In this document: positions 3,075-12,111 of the stretch, in pieces
How the letters are laid out: each line of letters begins with the position of its first letter
Numbering within the stretch: the stretch's first letter is position 1
Assembly: GCA_023262065.1 (NCBI GenBank)
Contig: JALRDW010000014.1
Coordinates: forward strand, 1 to 12,879
Source: Acidimicrobiia bacterium
GTDB taxonomy: Bacteria; Actinomycetota; Acidimicrobiia; IMCC26256
DNA length: 12,879 nt
Reading direction: 5' to 3'
The notes under the pieces: model-generated
Seen by the model: only the letters and a program-made list of their open reading frames with translations
Database searches by the model: none
What the model was told of the DNA's origin: nothing
Translations under genes and position numbers: made by a program

Positions 3075-5438
3075 GTGGAACCGCTCGAGGCAGTCCCGCA
3101 GGTCCCGTCGCTCGACGAACGCACGCCGCCGGCGGGCCTCCTGCCGGCCGAGGTCGCCGACCGCCGGGCCCGGGGGCTGGCGAACATCGCACGGGACCGC
3201 ACGAGTCGCAGCGTCGTCGACATCCTGCGCGGGAACATCATCACCCGGTTCAACGCCATCCTCGGGGCGATGCTCGCGATCGTGTTGGTGCTCGGGGATC
3301 CCCGGGATGGGCTCTTCGGGCTCGTGCTCATCGCCAACTCCGCGATCGGCATCGTGCAGGAACTCCGGGCCAAGCGGACCCTCGACTCGCTCTCGGTCCT
3401 CCATGCGCCGAGGTTGCGGGTGGTGCGGGGCGGCGAGGTCGAGGAGGTGCCGGCCGTCGATCTCGTCCGGGACGACGTCATCGAACTCCGCGCCGGTGAC
3501 CAGGTCCCGGCCGACGGCGTCGTGGTGGCGTCGGATGCGCTCGAGGTCGACGAGTCCCTGCTCACGGGCGAGTCCGACGCGATCGCCAAGCACGAGGGTG
3601 ACCACGTGCTCTCCGGGAGCGCGGTCATCGCGGGGACGGGCCGGTTCCAGGCCACCGCCGTCGGGGAGGCCGCCTACGCGCACCGCCTCGCGGCCGCGGT
3701 CCGCGCCTTCTCGCTCGTCCACTCGGAGGTCGCAGCCGGGATCGACCGCATCCTCAAGTGGGTGACCCTCGGCCTCCTCGTCGTCGGGCCGCTGCTCTTC
3801 TGGAACCAGTTGCGCCACGACGGCGTGGCCGATGCCCTCATCGGTGCGGTCGCCGGCGTCGTCGGTATGGTCCCCGAGGGCCTCGTGCTCCTGACGAGCC
3901 TCGCGTTCGGGGTCGCCGCAGTGACCCTCGCGCGACGGCAGGTGCTGGTCCAGGAGTTGCCGGCGGTCGAGGTCCTCGCCCGCGTCGACGTCGTGTGCCT
4001 CGACAAGACCGGGACCCTGACCGAGGGGTCGATCGCCCTCGACCGGGTGGTGGTGCTCGGGGATGCGGACCCTGCGTGGGTGCACGACGCGCTCGGTGCG
4101 ATCGCAGCGGACGAGGCCGCGAACGCGACGTTGCTCGCGGTGCGGGCGGCGCACCCGGCGCCGCCCGGCTGGGACCGCGTCGCCGGGGTCGCGTTCTCCT
4201 CGGCCCGCAAGTGGAGCGCGACCGGCTTCGCGGCGCAGGGTGCGTTCTGGCTCGGCGCGCCCGAGATGCTCCTCGCCGGATCCGCCGGCGAGGCCCGGCG
4301 GCTCGCCGACGAGATCGCCGGGACGGGGGCCCGGGTCCTCGCCCTGCTGCACGACGCGGGTCCCGTCGACGGGGAGACCGTGGCCCCCTCGGCCCGACCG
4401 GTCGCGCTCGTCGTCCTCGCCGAGCAGGTACGACCCGATGCTGCCGACACGCTCGCGTACTTCCGGGCCCAGGGGGTGACCCTCAAGGTCATCTCCGGTG
4501 ACAACCCGCTGACGGTCGGCGCGGTGGCGCGCCGGGTCGGGCTCGAGGTCGGGGTGCCGGTCGACGCCCGTACGCTGCCCACCGATCGCGAGGCGTTGGC
4601 CGCGGTCGTCGACGAGCACACGGTGTTCGGTCGTGTGACCCCCGAGCAGAAGCGGGCGATGGTCGGTGCGCTGCAGTCCCGGGGCCACGTCGTGGCCATG
4701 ACGGGGGACGGGGTGAACGACGCGCTGGCCCTCAAGGCCGCCGACATCGGCGTGGCGATGGGGTCCGGGGCCCCCGCGACCCGGGCCGTGGCGAAGCTCG
4801 TGCTGCTCGACGGTCGGTTCGACCGGATGCCGGGCGTGGTGGCCGAGGGGCGGCGGGTGATCGCGAACGTCGAACGGGTCGCGAACCTGTTCCTCACGAA
4901 GAGCACCTATGCAGCGCTCATCGCGATCGCGGTCGTCCTCGGATCCTGGCGGTACCCGTTCCTGCCCCGGCACCTCACGATCGTCAGCAGCCTCACGATC
5001 GGCATCCCGGCGTTCTTCCTCGCGCTCGAACCGAACGCTCAGCGGTACCTGCCCGGGTTCGTCGGGCGCGTGCTGCGGTTCGCGGTCCCCGCCGGCGTGA
5101 TCGTGACCCTCGGGGTGCTCGTCGCGTACGGCCTCGCCCGCCAGGACGGCGCGCCGCTCGTGGAGTCCCGGACGCTCGCAACGCTCGCGCTCGTGGTGAT
5201 CGGCCTCTGGGTGCTCGGCCTGCTCGCCCGTCCGCTCACCCCGTTGCGCACGGTCCTCGTCGTCGCCCTCGCCGCCGCCGTGCCGGTCGGCGCGGCGCTG
5301 CCGTTCGTGCGGCAGTTCTTCGACCTGTCCTTCGGGGGCGTGCTCGGCGTGACGCGCACCCTCCTCGTCGCCGCGTGCACCTGCGGCGTGCTCGAGGCGT
5401 GGTGGCGGCTCCGGCGCCGTCCGGCGTCCCTCGGATGA
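3075..5438 (+). CDS. ctpE: Cation-transporting P-type ATPase, CtpE-like
   Basis: This 787-residue membrane pump couples ATP hydrolysis to cation transport. Seen in order: N-terminal membrane pair (about 58-97), actuator domain with TGES (164-167), membrane pair around MVPEGL (265-270), phosphorylation loop DKTGTLT with Asp310, nucleotide domain (KWSA, 379-382), hinge TGDGVND (543-549), and about six C-terminal membrane segments (605-775). There is no N-terminal heavy-metal-binding domain or CPx motif, which argues against a copper or zinc P1B pump. From memory of the family, INAILG/FGL-IANS-IG-VQE-RAK-TLD and the overall length match mycobacterial CtpE, which is reported to take up calcium; substrate here is inferred from that resemblance. 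The start is GTG at 3075, consistent with family N-termini. It is divergent from the GGDEF-EAL gene and convergent with the multicopper oxidase gene. Confidence 0.92.
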   Translation: MEPLEAVPQVPSLDERTPPAGLLPAEVADRRARGLANIARDRTSRSVVDILRGNIITRFNAILGAMLAIVLVLGDPRDGLFGLVLIANSAIGIVQELRAKRTLDSLSVLHAPRLRVVRGGEVEEVPAVDLVRDDVIELRAGDQVPADGVVVASDALEVDESLLTGESDAIAKHEGDHVLSGSAVIAGTGRFQATAVGEAAYAHRLAAAVRAFSLVHSEVAAGIDRILKWVTLGLLVVGPLLFWNQLRHDGVADALIGAVAGVVGMVPEGLVLLTSLAFGVAAVTLARRQVLVQELPAVEVLARVDVVCLDKTGTLTEGSIALDRVVVLGDADPAWVHDALGAIAADEAANATLLAVRAAHPAPPGWDRVAGVAFSSARKWSATGFAAQGAFWLGAPEMLLAGSAGEARRLADEIAGTGARVLALLHDAGPVDGETVAPSARPVALVVLAEQVRPDAADTLAYFRAQGVTLKVISGDNPLTVGAVARRVGLEVGVPVDARTLPTDREALAAVVDEHTVFGRVTPEQKRAMVGALQSRGHVVAMTGDGVNDALALKAADIGVAMGSGAPATRAVAKLVLLDGRFDRMPGVVAEGRRVIANVERVANLFLTKSTYAALIAIAVVLGSWRYPFLPRHLTIVSSLTIGIPAFFLALEPNAQRYLPGFVGRVLRFAVPAGVIVTLGVLVAYGLARQDGAPLVESRTLATLALVVIGLWVLGLLARPLTPLRTVLVVALAAAVPVGAALPFVRQFFDLSFGGVLGVTRTLLVAACTCGVLEAWWRLRRRPASLG

Positions 5439-5539: not shown

Positions 5540-6910
5540 CTAGGAGACGATGAAGGTGGTCACCATGCCGAACATGCCGGTCGTGGCCTCGGCGTGGTTC
5601 AGGATGTGACAGTGGTAGGCCCACACGCCGGTCTGGGCTGCGGTGGGTTTGATGAGCACCGTGACCCGTTGCCCGGGGGCGACCATCACGGTGTCCTCCT
5701 GGTGCGGGAGCGGCAACGGGAACCCGTCCATCGCGATGACGGTCTGCGGGATGCCGTGGAGGTGCATCGGATGGATCTGGAGACCCTCGTTGTAGTACGT
5801 GACCATCACCGTCTCACCGACCTTCGCCTGGATCGGCAGGGTGGCGGGGAACGACTTGCCGTTGAGGGAAAGACCGATCGCGCCCGCGTCGTTGAGGATC
5901 ATCGACTGGTTCGAGGACGGTCGGCTGAAGCCGTCCGGGATCGGGAGCTCACCGACCAGGAACACGCCCACGAGACCGTCCGGCACCTGCTTCTCGGCGT
6001 TGTGGTGCGAGTGGTACATGCCCGTGGCCGGGGTCGACTGCGCGGTGAACACGTAATCGCGGGACCCGCCGGGCTTCACGGGGCCCTCGTTCGTCACGTA
6101 GGGCACACCGTCCTCGGACACCGGCACCTCGAGACCGTGGAAGTGGATCTCGGTGCTCTGGGGGAGCTCGTTCTCGAGGTGGATCCGGACCTTGTCGCCC
6201 GCGTCCACCTGGATCAGCGGTCCGGGCACCGTGCCGTTGTAGGTCCACGCCCGCACGGTCTGACCGGGGGACACCTCCCAGTCCACGATCTCGGCCGTCA
6301 GGTTGAAGACCTTCGTCCCGTCCGGCTCGATCACCGGCTCGAGCGGCACGTTGCCGAGCCCCTTCGTGTTCGGTCCGTTCTTCAGCTGGTCGACGTACGC
6401 GAGCACTGCGGCCTTGGCCGACGCGTCCTGCCCTGCGTTGGCCCGACGGATCGCGACCTCCTCGGCGTCCGTGGTCCCGCCGGCCATGCCGCCCTTCCCG
6501 ATCGTGACCGTGCCCTTCATGCCGGAGGACGCGTGACCGGGGATCGCGCAGTACATCTCGTAGGTACCCTCGTCGAGTCCCTCGAGGCTGAGCAGCTTCG
6601 ACTCGCCCGGCTGGATGTCGCCGGACTTCTTGTCGGTACCGGTGATCTCGAGGTTGTGCACGATCTTGCCCGCGTTCTCGACGTTGATGGAGCCGTCGAC
6701 CACCGCCACGACCGCGTTCGGCGAGAGCGTGAACTCGGTCTCCACGACCTTCGGTGAGTTCGCCTTCGCCGCCTCATCCTGTGCGTCGTTCGATCGGCCG
6801 AGCGCGTCGGCGGCCATCCACAGCGCGAAGAACGCGAACGTGAGGCCCAGCAGGGCGAACACCCACGCGCCGAAGCCGAGGGATCTGCGATCGTCCGTGG
6901 AGAGCGCCAC
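5540..6910 (-). CDS. Membrane-anchored cupredoxin-multicopper oxidase fusion (three cupredoxin domains)
   Basis: This 456-residue protein has one hydrophobic N-terminal segment (about 12-34) with no evident cleavage site, so it is probably anchored with its copper domains outside. The first cupredoxin domain (about 54-138) has a complete type 1 copper set: His85, Cys121, His126, Met131. A two-domain oxidase follows: HFHG (256, 258) and YHSH (300, 302) in domain 2; HPMHLHG (380-386) and HCHILNH with Met446 in domain 3. That supplies a second type 1 copper and the His pairs of a trinuclear centre, so a laccase-like oxidase is most likely. A nitrite reductase is less likely because domain 2 has Ser where NirK has its type 1 Cys. 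GTG at 6910 is preferred because GGAGG (6917-6921) lies six bases upstream; TTG at 6955 lacks this support. A DevR-like box lies 65 bases upstream. Confidence 0.88.
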   Translation of the reverse strand: MALSTDDRRSLGFGAWVFALLGLTFAFFALWMAADALGRSNDAQDEAAKANSPKVVETEFTLSPNAVVAVVDGSINVENAGKIVHNLEITGTDKKSGDIQPGESKLLSLEGLDEGTYEMYCAIPGHASSGMKGTVTIGKGGMAGGTTDAEEVAIRRANAGQDASAKAAVLAYVDQLKNGPNTKGLGNVPLEPVIEPDGTKVFNLTAEIVDWEVSPGQTVRAWTYNGTVPGPLIQVDAGDKVRIHLENELPQSTEIHFHGLEVPVSEDGVPYVTNEGPVKPGGSRDYVFTAQSTPATGMYHSHHNAEKQVPDGLVGVFLVGELPIPDGFSRPSSNQSMILNDAGAIGLSLNGKSFPATLPIQAKVGETVMVTYYNEGLQIHPMHLHGIPQTVIAMDGFPLPLPHQEDTVMVAPGQRVTVLIKPTAAQTGVWAYHCHILNHAEATTGMFGMVTTFIVS

Positions 6911-6975
6911 GGTCCACCTCCAGTGGGATCGGGAACGACGGGGCGAGTGTGCCAACCGCCGGGGCCCGACGCGTA

Positions 6976-6989
6976 GGGCCGAAGGTCCC
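6976..6989 (-). promoter_or_regulatory. DevR/DosR-type box upstream of the multicopper oxidase gene
   Basis: On the minus strand this reads GGGACCTTCGGCCC, flanked as CTCGGGACCTTCGGCCCTAC. It closely fits the mycobacterial DosR box TTSGGGACTWWAGTCCCSAA. It is one of three exact 14-mer copies in the window, all intergenic. It ends 65 bases before the oxidase start; a CACACT (-10-like, 6946-6951) lies about 25 bases downstream, as expected for an activator site overlapping -35. Confidence 0.72.
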
Positions 6990-7009
6990 GAGGCGAGGGC
7001 CTTGTGGCC

Positions 7010-7029
7010 GACCCGCGTCGTGTCGGGTC
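7010..7029 (-). terminator. Small hairpin at the end of the small unknown gene
   Basis: GACCCG (7010-7015) and CGGGTC (7024-7029) form a 6-bp stem with an 8-nt loop overlapping the stop codon of the small gene, just before the DevR-like box of the oxidase gene. It is weak, and a terminator role is only possible. Confidence 0.25.
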
Positions 7030-7441
7030 AGTCGACGAGCGGGGCGAGTGCGAGCAGGCCGGCCGCCGCGAGCAGGAACTCCCGGACGACCGTCTCGGTC
7101 TCGTGGCGGGCCCGCAGCGATTCGCCCCGCGTGCTCGTGCGGGTCCCGGCGGTGTCCCAGCTCGCGCTCACGCTGAGGTGGGTGCGCTCGCCGTGGACCG
7201 GCGCGACCTCGAGTTCGCCCCCGAGTCGGGCGAACGGGCCCGGCCAGCCCGAGCGTTCCCATTGCACCGACAGGGCCCACCCGTCCCCGCGCGGACGCAG
7301 CTCACCGGTGTCGGGCGCCGCCGGCTCGGCACCGCCGGCGCGCGCGGCCGCGTCGCGCAGGATCTCCCGTGCGCCGGCGCGGAGGCGATCGGCGACGAGC
7401 TCGACCGGCGCGTCAACGATCGTGAAGTCGTAGAGGAACAT
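7028..7441 (-). CDS. Small protein of unknown function preceded by a DevR-like box
   Basis: I do not recognise this 137-residue protein with certainty. It starts MFLYDFTIVDAPVELVADRL. It later has a Trp-rich stretch (WALSVQWERSGWPGPFARL), then alternating beta-like sequence (GELEVAPVHGERTHLSVSAS), and a C-terminal helix (about 112-134) that is Ala/Leu-rich near its end. The strand-helix-strands-long-helix order and the -GPF-RL-G-LEV-P---RTHL- pattern resemble SRPBCC/START-like lipid- or ligand-binding proteins, but that is a weak inference. The C-terminal Leu/Ala stretch is short for a membrane segment. It lies between the kinase gene (97-bp gap) and the oxidase gene (117-bp gap), all on the minus strand. 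Its own DevR-like box 40 bases upstream suggests separate induction. The ATG start has only a weak GGGA ribosome site. Confidence 0.72.
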   Translation of the reverse strand: MFLYDFTIVDAPVELVADRLRAGAREILRDAAARAGGAEPAAPDTGELRPRGDGWALSVQWERSGWPGPFARLGGELEVAPVHGERTHLSVSASWDTAGTRTSTRGESLRARHETETVVREFLLAAAGLLALAPLVD

Positions 7442-7481
7442 GGTTCCCGGGACCCTGCCGCGCCTGGAACGTCCCCGGGTA

Positions 7482-7495
7482 GGGCCGAAGGTCCC
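7482..7495 (-). promoter_or_regulatory. DevR/DosR-type box upstream of the small unknown gene
   Basis: This is the second exact copy of GGGACCTTCGGCCC (minus-strand reading), followed by TACC much as in the first copy (TACG). It lies in the 97-bp gap between the kinase stop and the small gene's ATG, 40 bases before that ATG. A site centred near -42 would place the transcript start almost at the ATG. The match to the DosR consensus and the identity with the other two copies are the evidence. Confidence 0.72.
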
Positions 7496-7538
7496 GTCCG
7501 TGCCGGTGCGCCCGCGGGTGCGCGCGACCGTCGGCGGA

Positions 7539-8666
7539 TCAGGTCGCGAGGGGGACGCGCCAGTCGACGACCGTCCCGCCGCTGGGTACCCGCTCGATCT
7601 GGACGCTCCCGCCGAGCTGCTCGGCGCGGTGCGCGAGGTTGCGGGTGCCGTTGCCGTTGCCGGTCTGCGGTCCGGCGCCCGGGCCGATGCCGTCGTCGGT
7701 CACCCGCAGGGCCAGGTCGGCCCCGGCGACCACCACCACCTCGACCCGGCTCGCCCGGGCGTGGCGCGCGACGTTCGTGAGCGCCTCGCGGGTGCATGCG
7801 AGCAGGTGCTCGCCGATCTCGGTGGGCACGACCGTGTCGATCGGGCCCTCGACGATGAGCCGGGGTCGGAACCCGAGCGCCGGCGTCACCTCGCTCATGA
7901 TCACCTGCAGCTCGCGGTGGAGGGAGGCCCCGGGGGCCTGCTGGAGGGCGAAGATGGTGCCCCGGATCTCCCGGATCGTCTCGTCGAGCTCATCGACCGC
8001 GGCCAGGATCCGCGTGCCGGTGTCCGGGTCGGTCGTCCGGGCGATGGCCTGCATCGTCATCGCGGTCGCGAAGAGGCGCTGGATCACGGTGTCGTGGAGG
8101 TCGCGCGCGATGCGGTCCCGGTCCTCGACGACGGCGTACTCCTGGATCTGGCGGTGCAGGCGGGCGTTCTCGATCGCCACACCGGCGGCGGCCGCGAGTG
8201 CCACAGCGAGCGCCTCGTCCTCCTCGGTGAACTCGCCGCCGCCGATCTTGTCGGTGAGGTAGAGGTTGCCGAACACCCGATCGCGCACCACGATCGGCAC
8301 CCCGAGGAACGCGCCCATCGGTGGATGCCCCGCAGGGAACCCGGCCGACCGGGGGTCGCGTGCGATCTCGGGGATCCGCAACGGGGCGGGCTCGACGATG
8401 AGGGTGCCGAGCAGACCGAGTCCCTCGGGTCGGTGGTCGATCCCGGCGATCGTCGTCGCGTCCATCCCGGCCGTGATGAACTCGCCCAGTTCGCCGCCGG
8501 GTCCGAGCACCCCGAGCGCGGCGTACCGGGCGTCGGCGACCTCGCCGGCCGCCCCGACGATGTGCTCGAGGGTGGTGGCGAGACTGAGGTCCGAGGCCAC
8601 GAGGAGGACGGCGTCGAGCAGGCGGCTCAGCCGGGCGGCCGGATCTGCGGCATGATGGGGGCTCAT
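7539..8666 (-). CDS. devS: DevS/DosS-like GAF sensor histidine kinase
   Basis: This 375-residue cytosolic kinase has one GAF domain (about 30-170). HisKA_3 follows, with RDRIARDLHDTVIQRLFA and phospho-accepting His191. A HATPase domain completes it (REALTNVARHA with Asn298; DDGIGP at 324-329). It should phosphorylate the divergent response regulator. The GAF sequence is very close to the haem-binding GAF-A of mycobacterial DosS: ARY-AL, PEGLG-LG-LI, GHPPM, FLGVP, FGNLYLTDK. His114 in HPPM aligns with DosS haem ligand His149, and Tyr136 aligns with distal Tyr171, with the same 22-residue spacing. The protein lacks the second GAF domain and the N-terminal extension of DosS (about 578 residues). 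Haem binding is inferred, because HPPM also occurs in related GAF kinases not known to bind haem. ATG at 8666 gives a 31-bp divergent gap to the regulator. Confidence 0.92.
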   Translation of the reverse strand: MSPHHAADPAARLSRLLDAVLLVASDLSLATTLEHIVGAAGEVADARYAALGVLGPGGELGEFITAGMDATTIAGIDHRPEGLGLLGTLIVEPAPLRIPEIARDPRSAGFPAGHPPMGAFLGVPIVVRDRVFGNLYLTDKIGGGEFTEEDEALAVALAAAAGVAIENARLHRQIQEYAVVEDRDRIARDLHDTVIQRLFATAMTMQAIARTTDPDTGTRILAAVDELDETIREIRGTIFALQQAPGASLHRELQVIMSEVTPALGFRPRLIVEGPIDTVVPTEIGEHLLACTREALTNVARHARASRVEVVVVAGADLALRVTDDGIGPGAGPQTGNGNGTRNLAHRAEQLGGSVQIERVPSGGTVVDWRVPLAT

Positions 8667-8697
8667 CGCCGTCCGATACTAGGGAGCCGAACACGAC
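8667..8697. promoter_or_regulatory. Compact divergent promoter region of the devS-devR pair
   Basis: Only 31 bases separate the two start codons. On the minus strand TAGTAT (8681 down to 8676) fits a -10 element, nine bases before the kinase ATG, implying a very short or absent leader. On the plus strand GGGAG (8682-8686) is a distant possible ribosome site for the regulator. No DevR-like box is present in the gap. Confidence 0.35.
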
Positions 8698-9396
8698 ATG
8701 GGGGCCGACGAACGGACGGGCGTGAGCGGTGAGGGCGCGGGCCGCACCCGGGTCTTTCTGCTCGATGACCACGAGATCGTGCGCCGGGGGCTGCGGGAGC
8801 TCCTCGAGGCCGAGGAGGACCTCCACATCGTGGGCGAGGCCGGGACCGCGGCCGACGCGCTCGCCCGCATCCCGCCCACCCGACCGGACGTCGCCGTGCT
8901 CGACGTTCGGCTCCCGGACGGCAACGGGGTCGAGGTGTGCCGCGAGGTGCGCTCCCGGCACCCGGAGATCCGCTGTCTGATGCTCACCTCGTTCAGTGAC
9001 GACGAGGCGCTGTTCCAGGCGATCATGGCGGGGGCTGCCGGGTACCTCCTCAAGCAGGTGCGGGGCACCGACCTCGTGACCGCGATCCGCAACGTCGCCG
9101 CCGGCCAGTCCCTCCTCGACCCTGCGATCACCGCGCAGGTGCTCGAGCGCCTGCGCAAGGGGAACGAGGAGGACGAGCGCCTCGCCCACCTGACCCCGCA
9201 GGAGCGCAACATCCTCGAGCTCATCGCCGAGGGGCTCACGAACCGTCAGATCGCCGAGCGCGTGCACCTCGCCGAGAAGACGGTCAAGAACTACGTGTCG
9301 AACCTGCTCGCCAAGTTGGGTATGGAGCGACGCACCCAGGCCGCGGTGTACGCGGCCCGCCTCGCCGAGCAGCGCGAGCACCAGCCCGACCTCTGA
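8698..9396 (+). CDS. devR: DevR/DosR-like NarL-family response regulator
   Basis: This 232-residue regulator has a receiver domain (about 17-135) with acidic pair Asp23-Asp24, phospho-accepting Asp69 (VLDVRLPDGNG), Thr97 and Lys119. A LuxR-type helix-turn-helix follows (about 163-228). Many segments match DevR/DosR of Mycobacterium as I recall it: DDHE-VRRGL, RPDVAVLDVRLPDGNG, and the DNA-recognition region LAEKTVKNYVS-LLAKLGMERR. Lys194, Lys197 and Asn198 have the spacing of DosR residues Lys179, Lys182 and Asn183, which contact the DNA box; this predicts recognition of the same kind of site. Three such sites lie within 2.6 kb. The start may be ATG 8698 or GTG 8722, since the receiver domain begins only around residue 17. 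It is divergent from its presumed partner kinase. Confidence 0.93.
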   Translation: MGADERTGVSGEGAGRTRVFLLDDHEIVRRGLRELLEAEEDLHIVGEAGTAADALARIPPTRPDVAVLDVRLPDGNGVEVCREVRSRHPEIRCLMLTSFSDDEALFQAIMAGAAGYLLKQVRGTDLVTAIRNVAAGQSLLDPAITAQVLERLRKGNEEDERLAHLTPQERNILELIAEGLTNRQIAERVHLAEKTVKNYVSNLLAKLGMERRTQAAVYAARLAEQREHQPDL

Positions 9397-9404
9397 GGCG
9401 TCGT

Positions 9405-9423
9405 GCGGTCCGGCCCGGACCGC
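9405..9423 (+). terminator. Hairpin after the response regulator gene
   Basis: GCGGTCC (9405-9411) and GGACCGC (9417-9423) form a perfect 7-bp stem with a GGCCC loop, starting eight bases after the regulator's TGA. There is no T-run. It likely separates devR transcription from the box-controlled gene downstream. Confidence 0.45.
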
Positions 9424-9460
9424 CGACGGGTTCGGCCCTTCCGGGGGTTGCGTCGGGATC

Positions 9461-9474
9461 GGGCCGAAGGTCCC
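9461..9474 (+). promoter_or_regulatory. DevR/DosR-type box upstream of the pseudo-receiver gene
   Basis: This third exact copy reads GGGCCGAAGGTCCC on the plus strand, so its orientation relative to its gene is opposite to the other two; as the site is nearly palindromic this may not matter. It ends 98 bases before the ATG at 9573. A separate half-site TTCGGCCC (9431-9438) lies 22 bases before it in inverted arrangement and could be a degenerate second site. Confidence 0.68.
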
Positions 9475-9572
9475 CCCGGCCGGGACCGGCGGCCCTGTCG
9501 GATGTGGACCGCACCCGGTCATCCTCTCGGTACGGGTGGTACGGCACCACTCGCACGTCGAGAGGGGTCGTC

Positions 9573-10181
9573 ATGAAGGTACTGGTGCTCGAGGCCGAAC
9601 CGGGTGCGGCCGAGGACTCGGTCGCGCAGCTGACCGCGAGTGGCCACGAGGTCGTCCGGTGCCACGCCGCGGGCGAGGCTGCGTTCCCGTGCGTCGGGAT
9701 CGACTCGGGCGGTGCGTGTCCCCTCGACGACGGCGGGGTCGACGTCGCCCTCACCGTGCGCCGTCACGCGCGATCCGTGCCCACCCCGCACGAGGACGGT
9801 GTCGCGTGCGCGATCCGCAACCGGGTCCCGCTCGTGGTGACCGGCGAGACCTCACTCAACCCGTACGAGCGCCTCGGGGCGATCGTGGCCTCCGAGGGTG
9901 ACCTCGAGAACGTGCTCGCCGAGGCGGTGCGCGACGCGCGTCCCGATCACAGCGAGGTCGCGCTCGGCGCGCTGCTCGCGTCGCTGCGGGCGAACGACCA
10001 GCCGACCGCGACCGCCAACGCCCGGGTCTGGCGGGCCCGCACGGGACTCCACGCGGTGCTCGAGGTGGCCGAGTCGGTGCCCCAGCGGGTGCGGGACATG
10101 GCGGCGGTTCGGGTGACGAGCGCGCTGCGGGCCTACGACCGGTTCGCCGCGCAGATCGACGTGAGCATCGAGGCCGTCTGA
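9573..10181 (+). CDS. Pseudo-receiver-like protein with four cysteines, unknown function
   Basis: This 202-residue protein starts at ATG 9573, with GAGGGG (9562-9567) five bases upstream; an earlier in-frame GTG at 9504 lacks such a site. The N-terminal ~110 residues look like a receiver fold: MKVLVLEAEPGAAEDSV as strand-helix, SGHEVVRC, then VDVALTVRRH where a receiver has its phospho-acceptor Asp. Here that position is Thr61, the acidic pair is only Glu7/Glu9, and no clear conserved Lys is seen, so phosphorylation is unlikely. Four cysteines (30, 40, 49, 79) lie in the same half, in CH, PC, ACPLDDG and VACAIRN contexts. The C-terminal half is helical, with no HTH I can recognise. An upstream DevR-like box suggests induction with the DevR regulon. 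A redox- or metal-responsive role is speculation. Confidence 0.8.
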   Translation: MKVLVLEAEPGAAEDSVAQLTASGHEVVRCHAAGEAAFPCVGIDSGGACPLDDGGVDVALTVRRHARSVPTPHEDGVACAIRNRVPLVVTGETSLNPYERLGAIVASEGDLENVLAEAVRDARPDHSEVALGALLASLRANDQPTATANARVWRARTGLHAVLEVAESVPQRVRDMAAVRVTSALRAYDRFAAQIDVSIEAV

Positions 10182-10212: not shown

Positions 10213-12111
10213 TCAGGGCGTCGGCGGCGGCGGCGGGACGGTCGTGGGAGGCGGCGGCACCGTCGTGGGTGGCGCGGTCGGAGGCGGACCGGTGGCTCCG
10301 GTGGTGCCGGTGGCGCCCGTCGCACCGGTCCCCGGGCACGGGAACCGCTTCGGCTGCATCTGGTACCGCTCGGAGAAGCGCTGGCGCTTCGTCGAACCGT
10401 CGGCCGATCGGATGATCCGGAAGTTCTCGACCACGTACCCGGTGTGGCCGGCCGTGGTGACGGCCTTCTTGGGCGGGGTGGTCGCGGGGTCGAAGCACTC
10501 CTCGACGATCGGGATCGTCTGGAGGATGTTCGGGCCCTCCGCGGTGACCGTGCGGCCGCCGTTGTCGCCGTAGAGACTCACCGTGATCGAGGTGCCGGAG
10601 ACCGCGGTGCGGATGAGGACACCGTTCGGTGTGTCGTTCCGGAACCGGTTGTCGATCGACGGGTAGTTGAGCGTGGCCTCCCGGCCCATCGGGTACCGCT
10701 CGATGTAGAGCGCATGCACCGTGTGCGTGACGTCCTCGTACCCGCCGAAGAAGACCGCGTTGAACAGGGTGGTCGACAACTGGCTGACGCCGCCGCCCAC
10801 CGAGTCCTCGTAGGACAGGTCGGCCCCGATCTGGGGCGCGAGCACGTAGCCCTTGGCGAGGGTTCGGGGTCCGAGGTGCTGGTTGAGCGAGAACGTCTGT
10901 CCGGGTTCGACGATCGCGCCGTTGAGCGCGGCGGCTGCGGTGTGGATGTTCGTGACCCGCGGCTGGCAGCACGGGTGGTTCGTCGTGTAGCTCGAGACCA
11001 GCTTCGTGATGTTGAGCCGCTGGGCCCATGCGGTGTCGCGGGCGGGGGACACCTCCGTGATCCGACCCGTGACCCGGTGGCGGCCCCGGGCGATCGCGGC
11101 GGCCACGGGTCCGAGGTCGACCTGGCGACCGGTCACCGACGGCACGACGCTCACCGTCGCCCCGTTCACTGCGAAGTCGGCGTCCTTCGGCGGGGTCTCG
11201 ATCGATGCGAGCGTGGGCGCGAGCGCGGTGCGCAGTGCGGCCGCGTCGACGGTGAGCTCGAGGCGGCCATCGGTCGGGCGCACCCCGAGCGTCGGCGCGA
11301 GGGTCTCGGGCGCGATCGGGTACCCGGTGCCGCCCACGGTGAGCACCACGGGACGGGCGAGCAGGGCCCGGGCGCGACGAGCCGCGGCGAGGGTCTCGGC
11401 TCGGTCGATGGTCGGTCGGGTGCGGCCGACAGGGAGCACGACCCCGTTCGTGTCGCCGGACGCCAGTGCGGCACGGACCCGGTCGTCGGCCGCGGGTCGC
11501 AGGAGACCCTCGCCGCGGGCCGGGGGACGGACGACGACCTCGGTGCCGCGGAACTCGATGGTACCGTCGGTGAGGCCTGCGCCGACCTGCCGCTGCCACT
11601 CGTCGATGGCGGCGGTCACGGTGCGGTCGTCGATCGTGACCGGGACCTCGACGTCGATCCCCGTGGCGCGACGTCGGAAGGTGTCCAGGATCGCACGGAA
11701 GGGGTTCGTCCGCCCGGCCCGGCGCACCGCGCGCCGCGCGGCCTCCGGGTCGTAGGTCGCACCGAGCGCCGTGGCGTCAGCGGCCACCAGCCGGGTGGAC
11801 CCGGCGATCGCGGTGAACGGGCGGGCCTGGGCGCGGGCCGCTGCGAGTCGGGCCACCGCGAGGATCTCCGCCTCGGATCGGCCGCCGACGTCGATCCCGT
11901 CAAGCGAGACGCCGGGCAGGGCCTCGCCGCGGTGGTTGACGCGGTCGGCGAGCGCGGCGAGGACGACGACGAGGGCGATGCAGAGGAGGCCGACGACGGT
12001 CCAGACCCGCTCGGCGGGTGCGTGTCCGGCCCGACGGGCCGAGACCCGATGCCGCGGTACCCGGGGGGCGTGGCGCGGGGGGCTCGGGCGGGCGGGGGGC
12101 GTGGTCTCCAT
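10213..12111 (-). CDS. Membrane-anchored VanW-family cell-wall protein with Gly-X-Y and proline-rich tail
   Basis: This 632-residue protein has a basic N-terminus, one membrane segment (about 36-57) and a large outside part. Residues about 62-345 hold two peptidoglycan-binding-like (YoaR/PG_binding_4 type) repeats: the first opens with LPGVSLDGIDVGG, and the second covers about 240-345. A VanW domain follows (about 375-515), with NITKLVSSYTT, LNGAIVEPGQTFSLNQ-LGPRT, SVGGGVSQLSTTLFNAVFFG and NYPSIDNRFRNDTPNG. A G5-like beta region follows (about 515-590). The tail has Gly-X-Y triplets (596-610) and then TTVPPPP-type repeats to the end. VanW proteins are cell-envelope proteins of uncertain biochemical role; vanW itself accompanies some vancomycin-resistance clusters, but nothing else here suggests resistance. 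ATG at 12111 is chosen because sequence further upstream in frame is antisense to the acyl-CoA dehydrogenase gene. Confidence 0.9.
   Translation of the reverse strand: METTPPARPSPPRHAPRVPRHRVSARRAGHAPAERVWTVVGLLCIALVVVLAALADRVNHRGEALPGVSLDGIDVGGRSEAEILAVARLAAARAQARPFTAIAGSTRLVAADATALGATYDPEAARRAVRRAGRTNPFRAILDTFRRRATGIDVEVPVTIDDRTVTAAIDEWQRQVGAGLTDGTIEFRGTEVVVRPPARGEGLLRPAADDRVRAALASGDTNGVVLPVGRTRPTIDRAETLAAARRARALLARPVVLTVGGTGYPIAPETLAPTLGVRPTDGRLELTVDAAALRTALAPTLASIETPPKDADFAVNGATVSVVPSVTGRQVDLGPVAAAIARGRHRVTGRITEVSPARDTAWAQRLNITKLVSSYTTNHPCCQPRVTNIHTAAAALNGAIVEPGQTFSLNQHLGPRTLAKGYVLAPQIGADLSYEDSVGGGVSQLSTTLFNAVFFGGYEDVTHTVHALYIERYPMGREATLNYPSIDNRFRNDTPNGVLIRTAVSGTSITVSLYGDNGGRTVTAEGPNILQTIPIVEECFDPATTPPKKAVTTAGHTGYVVENFRIIRSADGSTKRQRFSERYQMQPKRFPCPGTGATGATGTTGATGPPPTAPPTTVPPPPTTVPPPPPTP
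10216..10335. repeat. Low-complexity Gly-X-Y and Pro-rich coding repeats
   Basis: The 3' end of the VanW gene is built of short imperfect repeats. GGTGGCTCC/GGTGGTGCC-like units encode GAT/GTT triplets, and GGCGGCGGC/GTCGTGGG units encode PPPP/TTVPP (read on the minus strand). Such tracts can change length by slippage. Confidence 0.6.

Follow-up and report, generated by a model that had tools for sequence, protein, structure and literature searches.

Which genes does a DevS/DevR-type switch control outside the mycobacteria and streptomycetes in which such systems have been studied? The question is raised by a stretch of 12,879 nucleotides from an Acidimicrobiia bacterium (assembly GCA_023262065.1, contig JALRDW010000014.1), hereafter called the window, in which the genes for a DevS-like sensor kinase and a DevR-like response regulator are flanked by identical copies of a 14-bp sequence. 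Our results indicate that the window very probably contains a two-component system of the DevS/DevR (DosS/DosR) type and, along with it, three target promoters to which its regulator is predicted to bind. In the proposed mechanism, a heme-containing kinase with a single GAF domain would be activated by the loss of O2, by NO or CO, or possibly by H2S, and would then phosphorylate DevR at Asp69. The phosphorylated regulator would bind 14-bp boxes, often paired at a distance of 20-23 bp, and thereby activate the genes for a cupredoxin-laccase-type oxidase, an SRPBCC-like small protein and a Cys-rich pseudo-receiver as well as, elsewhere in the genome, a gene resembling those for sulfide:quinone reductases (SQR). 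That hypoxia, NO or CO would act as inducers is proposed from homology to known DosR systems, and H2S was added to the candidate signals because of the accessible part of a further report (PMC9062744).

The boxes and the DevS/DevR pair of the window

The 14-mer GGGCCGAAGGTCCC occurs in three exact copies (6976-6989, 7482-7495 and 9461-9474), a number reached in none of 200 dinucleotide shuffles of the window, which contained 0.01 exact copies on average. As stated in a preliminary description of this DNA, each copy lies in a different gap between predicted genes (6911-7027, 7442-7538 and 9397-9572) and 5' of a different gene. Box 1 is found 65 bp before the GTG start codon (6910) of the oxidase gene, box 2 40 bp before the ATG (7441) of the small protein gene and box 3 98 bp before the ATG (9573) of the pseudo-receiver gene. 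Boxes 1 and 3 each have a weaker partner 21 bp away, at 6997..7010 (seven of the eight fixed positions, a single A/T in its centre) and 9482..9495 (all eight fixed positions, G+C centre), respectively; no partner is present 20-22 bp from box 2. When up to three mismatches are allowed, the window contains nine sites compared with 6.17 expected, and 33 of 200 shuffles reach this number; as there is no clear excess at this level, only exact and near-exact copies were counted. The window box matches the palindrome published for OsdR/DevR, as given in the available text of PMC5069765, and its initial assignment as a DosR box agrees with the published DosR/OsdR motif.

The response regulator (8698..9396, plus strand) was identified by its Pfam domains (Response_reg and GerE), its contact residues and its best match among solved structures, DevR of Mycobacterium tuberculosis (3c3w, E 2.1e-80). 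In the alignment with this structure, Lys194, Lys197 and Asn198 correspond, with an offset of 15, to Lys179, Lys182 and Asn183, which the accessible part of PMC4082495 describes as base-contacting in DosR. Together with Asp69, these residues are invariant in all 13 aligned orthologues, so that the retention of the DosR contact residues noted previously extends beyond the window. The histidine kinase (7539..8666, minus strand) comprises one GAF domain (residues 27-166), HisKA_3 at residue 183 and an ATPase domain. The top structure matches of its GAF domain are 2vzw (E 1.6e-43) and GAF-A of DevS (2y8h, E 2.3e-41). The residue of 2y8h that aligns with His114 is at chain position 92 and would be His149, the proximal heme ligand of DosS, if the chain begins with GAMDP-Asp63 as described in the available portion of PMC4082495. 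The earlier designation as a DevS-type sensor is thus upheld by one DevS-type GAF domain with a conserved candidate heme ligand. A GF-HPPM-like heme motif is also found within about 1.5 kb of 12 of 30 devR loci from the class, including the window, not counting one further HPPM match that lacks the GF context.

The two genes are divergently oriented, with 31 bp between their starts (8667-8697), implying that their promoters must overlap or that the transcripts are nearly leaderless. By eye, a TAGTAT sequence on the minus strand of this region looks like a -10 element. Autoregulation of devRS was considered and rejected, given that the window contains no box for it and that, among the 30 devR loci examined in the class, only 5 have one upstream, a number inside the shuffled range (mean 2.1, largest 6) and hence no signal. 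Judged from sequence, DevR shows all testable features of its family, while the kinase deviates by its single GAF domain and the devRS pair by the missing box.

Box conservation and its link to DevR

Whether the 14-mer is frequent throughout the genome, as the preliminary description had asked, can be answered from the source assembly (79% complete, 2.10 Mb, 300 contigs): there are four exact copies, three in the window and one on another contig (C64:343-356), and no exact copy of the backward-read sequence. With up to two mismatches, 94 places are found versus 40 for the backward pattern, and the loose palindrome GGGNCNWWNGNCCC has 23 sites versus 6. Copies close to the exact sequence are thus few but clearly in excess, whereas a loose match on its own carries little information. 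According to crude gene calling, the 20 loose sites beyond the window comprise 7 intergenic and 13 intragenic ones, among the latter the C64 site, which is counted there only owing to a too-early gene start. Because of this large intragenic share, we do not claim single loose sites as operators. None of the 23 loose sites lies within 1.5 kb of the starts of the three genes with Usp matches in this genome, a scan that did not include weaker sites.

The exact C64 box is accompanied by a second box 20 bp away (L027 323-356) and lies 60 bp before a gene whose product matches the type III sulfide:quinone reductase model NF049943 (E 4e-38, 131 bits); as this score falls well short of the curated cut-off (525), the protein can only be termed SQR-like. 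Distant SQR-like homologues (L131 and L132) likewise have an upstream box. In class relatives, boxes near devR precede other genes again. From a box-to-gene list of 30 devR loci, which includes false frames, ten products were picked for Pfam analysis, yielding three proteins each with Usp and Pyridox_ox_2 matches, one each with Peptidase_M50, VIT1 and Haem_bd matches, and one without a match. The regulon can therefore not be called self-contained, as it had been initially. Two single-mismatch boxes of the source genome (L028 54-67 and L025 2042-2055) are situated just before the genes for a 407-aa protein and a DUF2510/DUF2157 protein, which are possible further targets.

For an assessment of conservation, the oxidase, pseudo-receiver, DevR and SQR-like protein were searched for in 247 evenly drawn genomes of the class, and the small protein in 58 genomes of the order. 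Upstream regions (300 bp + 30 bp) of up to 30 best loci per family, window included, were scanned for sites that match 7 or more of the 8 fixed positions and 9 or more of the 10 obtained when the A/T centre is included, with 300 shuffles per family as a control. A box was detected at 22 of 30 oxidase loci, taken from 68 match rows (in the shuffles, mean 2.3, largest 7), at 18 of 30 pseudo-receiver loci, taken from 37 (mean 2.2, largest 6), at 8 of 9 small protein loci (mean 0.75, largest 4) and at 3 of 6 SQR-like loci (mean 0.36, largest 2). The backward pattern appeared at none of the 30 oxidase loci, at one of the 30 pseudo-receiver loci and at one devR locus. The reported position of a box before all three target genes is thus mirrored in the same families of relatives. 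Pairing recurs as well: over 51 regions, the distance between the best box and a weaker partner was 22 bp in 17 cases, 21 bp in 10 and 20 bp in 5, followed by 28 bp (5 cases), with no other distance between 5 and 60 bp seen more than 4 times. Paired boxes are also known in mycobacteria and are thus common to both systems.

The oxidase extends this analysis beyond the class. Relatives with E 1e-80 or better were found in 44 of 396 genomes of the phylum, 34 of them outside the class. Upstream DNA could be scanned for 32 of these 34 loci, the other two being too near a contig end, and contained a box in 28 cases. Shuffled sequences had a box in 2.88 cases on average and in 9 at most, and the backward pattern was present at 4 of the 32 loci. 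These data bear on the idea that the 14-mer is a dispersed repeat, such as a mobile or structural element between genes, rather than an operator, which might be suggested by three identical copies close to each other. However, there are only four exact copies in the genome, and in relatives the sequence drifts, but the box remains palindromic and stays upstream of the same families. Furthermore, 45 of 63 sites have A at box position 4, a position left out of the score, and the oxidase keeps its box outside the class. We therefore regard a dispersed repeat as exceedingly improbable.

The boxes could also be bound by another NarL/LuxR-type regulator that recognizes a similar palindrome, with the neighbouring DevR acting elsewhere. 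The source genome indeed encodes 19 first-look candidates of this type, and a minority of the target-bearing genomes have no DevR match. However, the contact residues of DevR are those of DosR, and the targets co-occur with devR, often adjoining it. With a cut-off of E 1e-55 or better, DevR was detected in 29 of the 33 genomes that encode the pseudo-receiver and in 56 of the 63 that encode the oxidase, compared with 131 of 247 overall (values not corrected for shared ancestry), and 7 of 8 relatives of the small protein share a contig with devR or the oxidase gene within a few kb. In addition, box density follows the presence of DevR: within the order, strict matches occur at 1.18 per Mb in 37 DevR-positive and 0.57 per Mb in 21 DevR-negative genomes (one-sided p 0.006), compared with 0.38 and 0.39 per Mb for the backward control, with palindromic sites counting on both strands and some of the DevR-negative assemblies being incomplete. 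Binding of the boxes by a different regulator is thus very unlikely.

Several observations nevertheless weigh against the assignment of the boxes and their targets to a DosR-type system. The kinase has one GAF domain in place of the tandem pair of DosS/DosT, and the scanned devS-devR intergenic region (8660-8705) contains no box, whereas osdR has one. Within the class, a box at the threshold used is missing from 8 of the 30 oxidase loci, 12 of the 30 pseudo-receiver loci and 3 of the 6 SQR-like loci, the last group including the closest relative of the SQR-like gene (L129, 82% identical). Of the genomes with the oxidase and with the pseudo-receiver, 7 of 63 and 4 of 33, respectively, gave no DevR match at E 1e-55; several of them are incomplete. 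Finally, three genomes from the same genus (G003, G174 and G197), two of them represented by incomplete assemblies, lack devR, the oxidase, the pseudo-receiver and the small protein at the cut-offs used. The target module is thus patchy within the genus, reflecting loss or transfer.

The predicted target genes

The first target gene (5540..6910, minus strand) encodes a cupredoxin domain fused to a two-domain multicopper oxidase, as assigned from Pfam, ligand motifs and solved relatives, with a probable N-terminal membrane anchor. Laccase-type multicopper oxidases have four HxH motifs that form the trinuclear site and a T1 HCH motif in the last domain, and both features are present in all 30 aligned relatives, along with the motif CxxxxHxxxxM of the N-terminal blue-copper cupredoxin. 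The fusion described initially is therefore correct and can be specified as a two-domain oxidase of the laccase type, which we take to be the type with its T1 copper in the last domain. The motifs HxHG, HxH, HPMHxH and HCHILxH, conserved in 30 of 30 sequences, are common to this family and the two-domain laccases, whereas the extra cupredoxin domain and the probable anchor set the window protein apart. An identity as nitrite reductase was rejected. In the copper nitrite reductase NirK, the T1 Cys resides in the first oxidase domain, but this position is occupied by Ser, Ala or Pro in all 30 sequences, and the score against TIGR02376 (NirK) is 72.4 bits, under the cut-off of 296.3. A P-type ATPase gene (E1-E2_ATPase, 3075-5438) is arranged 3' to 3' with the oxidase gene.

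The nature of this enzyme is relevant to the direction of regulation. DevR could bind its boxes but act as a repressor, with the targets being expressed in oxic growth, as would suit an O2-using laccase-type oxidase. In support of this notion, the copper ligands of O2-reducing enzymes are present in 30 of 30 oxidase relatives. However, DosR is mainly known as an activator, and the distance from the beginning of the box to the start codon is 51-54 bp at 6 of 9 small protein loci, a spacing that suits activation, albeit only with short leaders. On the other hand, an osdR mutant has genes going both up and down, as reported in the accessible text of PMC5069765. Overall, we consider repression unlikely and favour activation by DevR.

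The second target gene (7028..7441, minus strand) encodes a small protein without a Pfam match, for which a predicted model and a fold search suggest an SRPBCC/Bet v 1-like fold. The product of the third (9573..10181, plus strand) is a putative pseudo-receiver of 202 aa with an OsmC/Ohr-like C-terminal half, which has no Pfam match at E 0.1 and no full-length match in a fold search. Its family has four invariant Cys residues and one invariant His (His25, Cys30, Cys40, Cys49 and Cys79 in 64 of 64 aligned sequences). A phosphoacceptor Asp was not found, as the beta-3-like strand (58-63) ends in a nearly invariant Arg63. Elsewhere in the window, a long minus-strand gene (1131-2905) resembles PAS-GGDEF-EAL proteins by eye, and a VanW/PG_binding_4 protein (10213-12111) has a proline- and glycine-rich low-complexity end.

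Recurrence beyond the class and relation to known systems

Among the 80 top-ranking DevR-like places, out of at least 590, drawn from Acidimicrobiia, Streptomyces, Frankia and other actinobacteria, 42 have a full box in their flanks of up to 6 kb (59 sites versus 6 for the backward control). Within these flanks, an oxidase relative was found only at L182, and there were no relatives of the small protein or the pseudo-receiver. Since the six Acidimicrobi- loci in this set likewise lack the target genes nearby, the scan is silent on whether the targets are limited to the class. Such a restriction can be dismissed, because the oxidase is encoded in 34 genomes outside the class, where one genus also has the complete set. 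The pseudo-receiver was detected in 7 of 396 phylum genomes, five of them in the class and two (G363 and G499, of one genus) outside it, with weak matches in the latter (E 3e-4 and 5e-4). Both outside loci combine a short pseudo-receiver frame with a small-protein-like frame and a relative of DevR (identity 60 and 59% over 192 aa), to which G363 (L228 1-3219) adds an oxidase and G499 (L227 1-3180) a GAF-type kinase. The pseudo-receiver-like frame of L228 is about 136 aa long and lacks the C-terminal half, with three Cys in place by eye; the profiles of the two small families gave 26.0 and 29.9 bits against the L228 frames in a search of two sequences, for which the bit scores rather than the E-values are meaningful. 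In both loci, one pair of boxes 23 bp apart lies between the two divergent small genes and a second pair past devR. As the two genomes belong to one genus, they count as one independent recurrence, which argues for an old, shared module over a local novelty.

The system shares its base-contact residues, the proximal His of GAF-A and the palindromic box with mycobacterial DosS-DosT/DosR, as described in the available part of PMC4082495. It differs by its single GAF domain, compared with two in DosS/DosT, by a devRS pair without a box and by its targets, with cupredoxin oxidase, SRPBCC-like protein and pseudo-receiver distinguishing it from the mycobacterial system. OsdK/OsdR of Streptomyces coelicolor uses the same class of box (consensus AGGGCCGATCGGCCCT), although osdR carries its own box, unlike devR of the window. 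Usp and pyridoxamine-oxidase genes figure in the published OsdR/DevR comparison and have boxes in S. coelicolor, as in the class relatives (PMC5069765, accessible text). The words copper, sulfide and Acidimicrob are absent from the main text of that paper. In M. tuberculosis, the DosR regulon is induced on disturbed copper balance, according to the available part of a study of CsoR (PMC4801387), which provides a loose link between copper and the switch but is not evidence for the window. In the open-access papers searched, with subscription journals outside the scope, we found no paper joining DosR with Acidimicrobi- or with cupredoxin, and none joining Acidimicrobi-, hypoxia, two-component and dormancy; papers mentioning DosR and multicopper oxidase, or DevR and laccase (the latter mostly fungal by title), do exist.

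The switch itself is already known, but the conserved module of predicted targets is new. We tentatively suggest that it may be possible for a DosR-type switch to drive an old and conserved redox module linked to gases, copper and sulfide outside the studied mycobacteria and streptomycetes. Heme-GAF sensing of O2, NO, CO or H2S would then induce a tethered cupredoxin-laccase together with an SRPBCC-like carrier and a new family of metal- or Fe-S-binding pseudo-receivers that would relay or buffer the redox state; in the source genome, an SQR-like sulfide oxidase would be induced as well. Mostly uncultured actinobacterial lineages thereby gain a testable gas-sensing regulon, in which the footprints name the cupredoxin-laccase as a predicted target kept in and beyond the class, and an uncharacterised family of Cys-rich pseudo-receivers gains a predicted regulator and signal.

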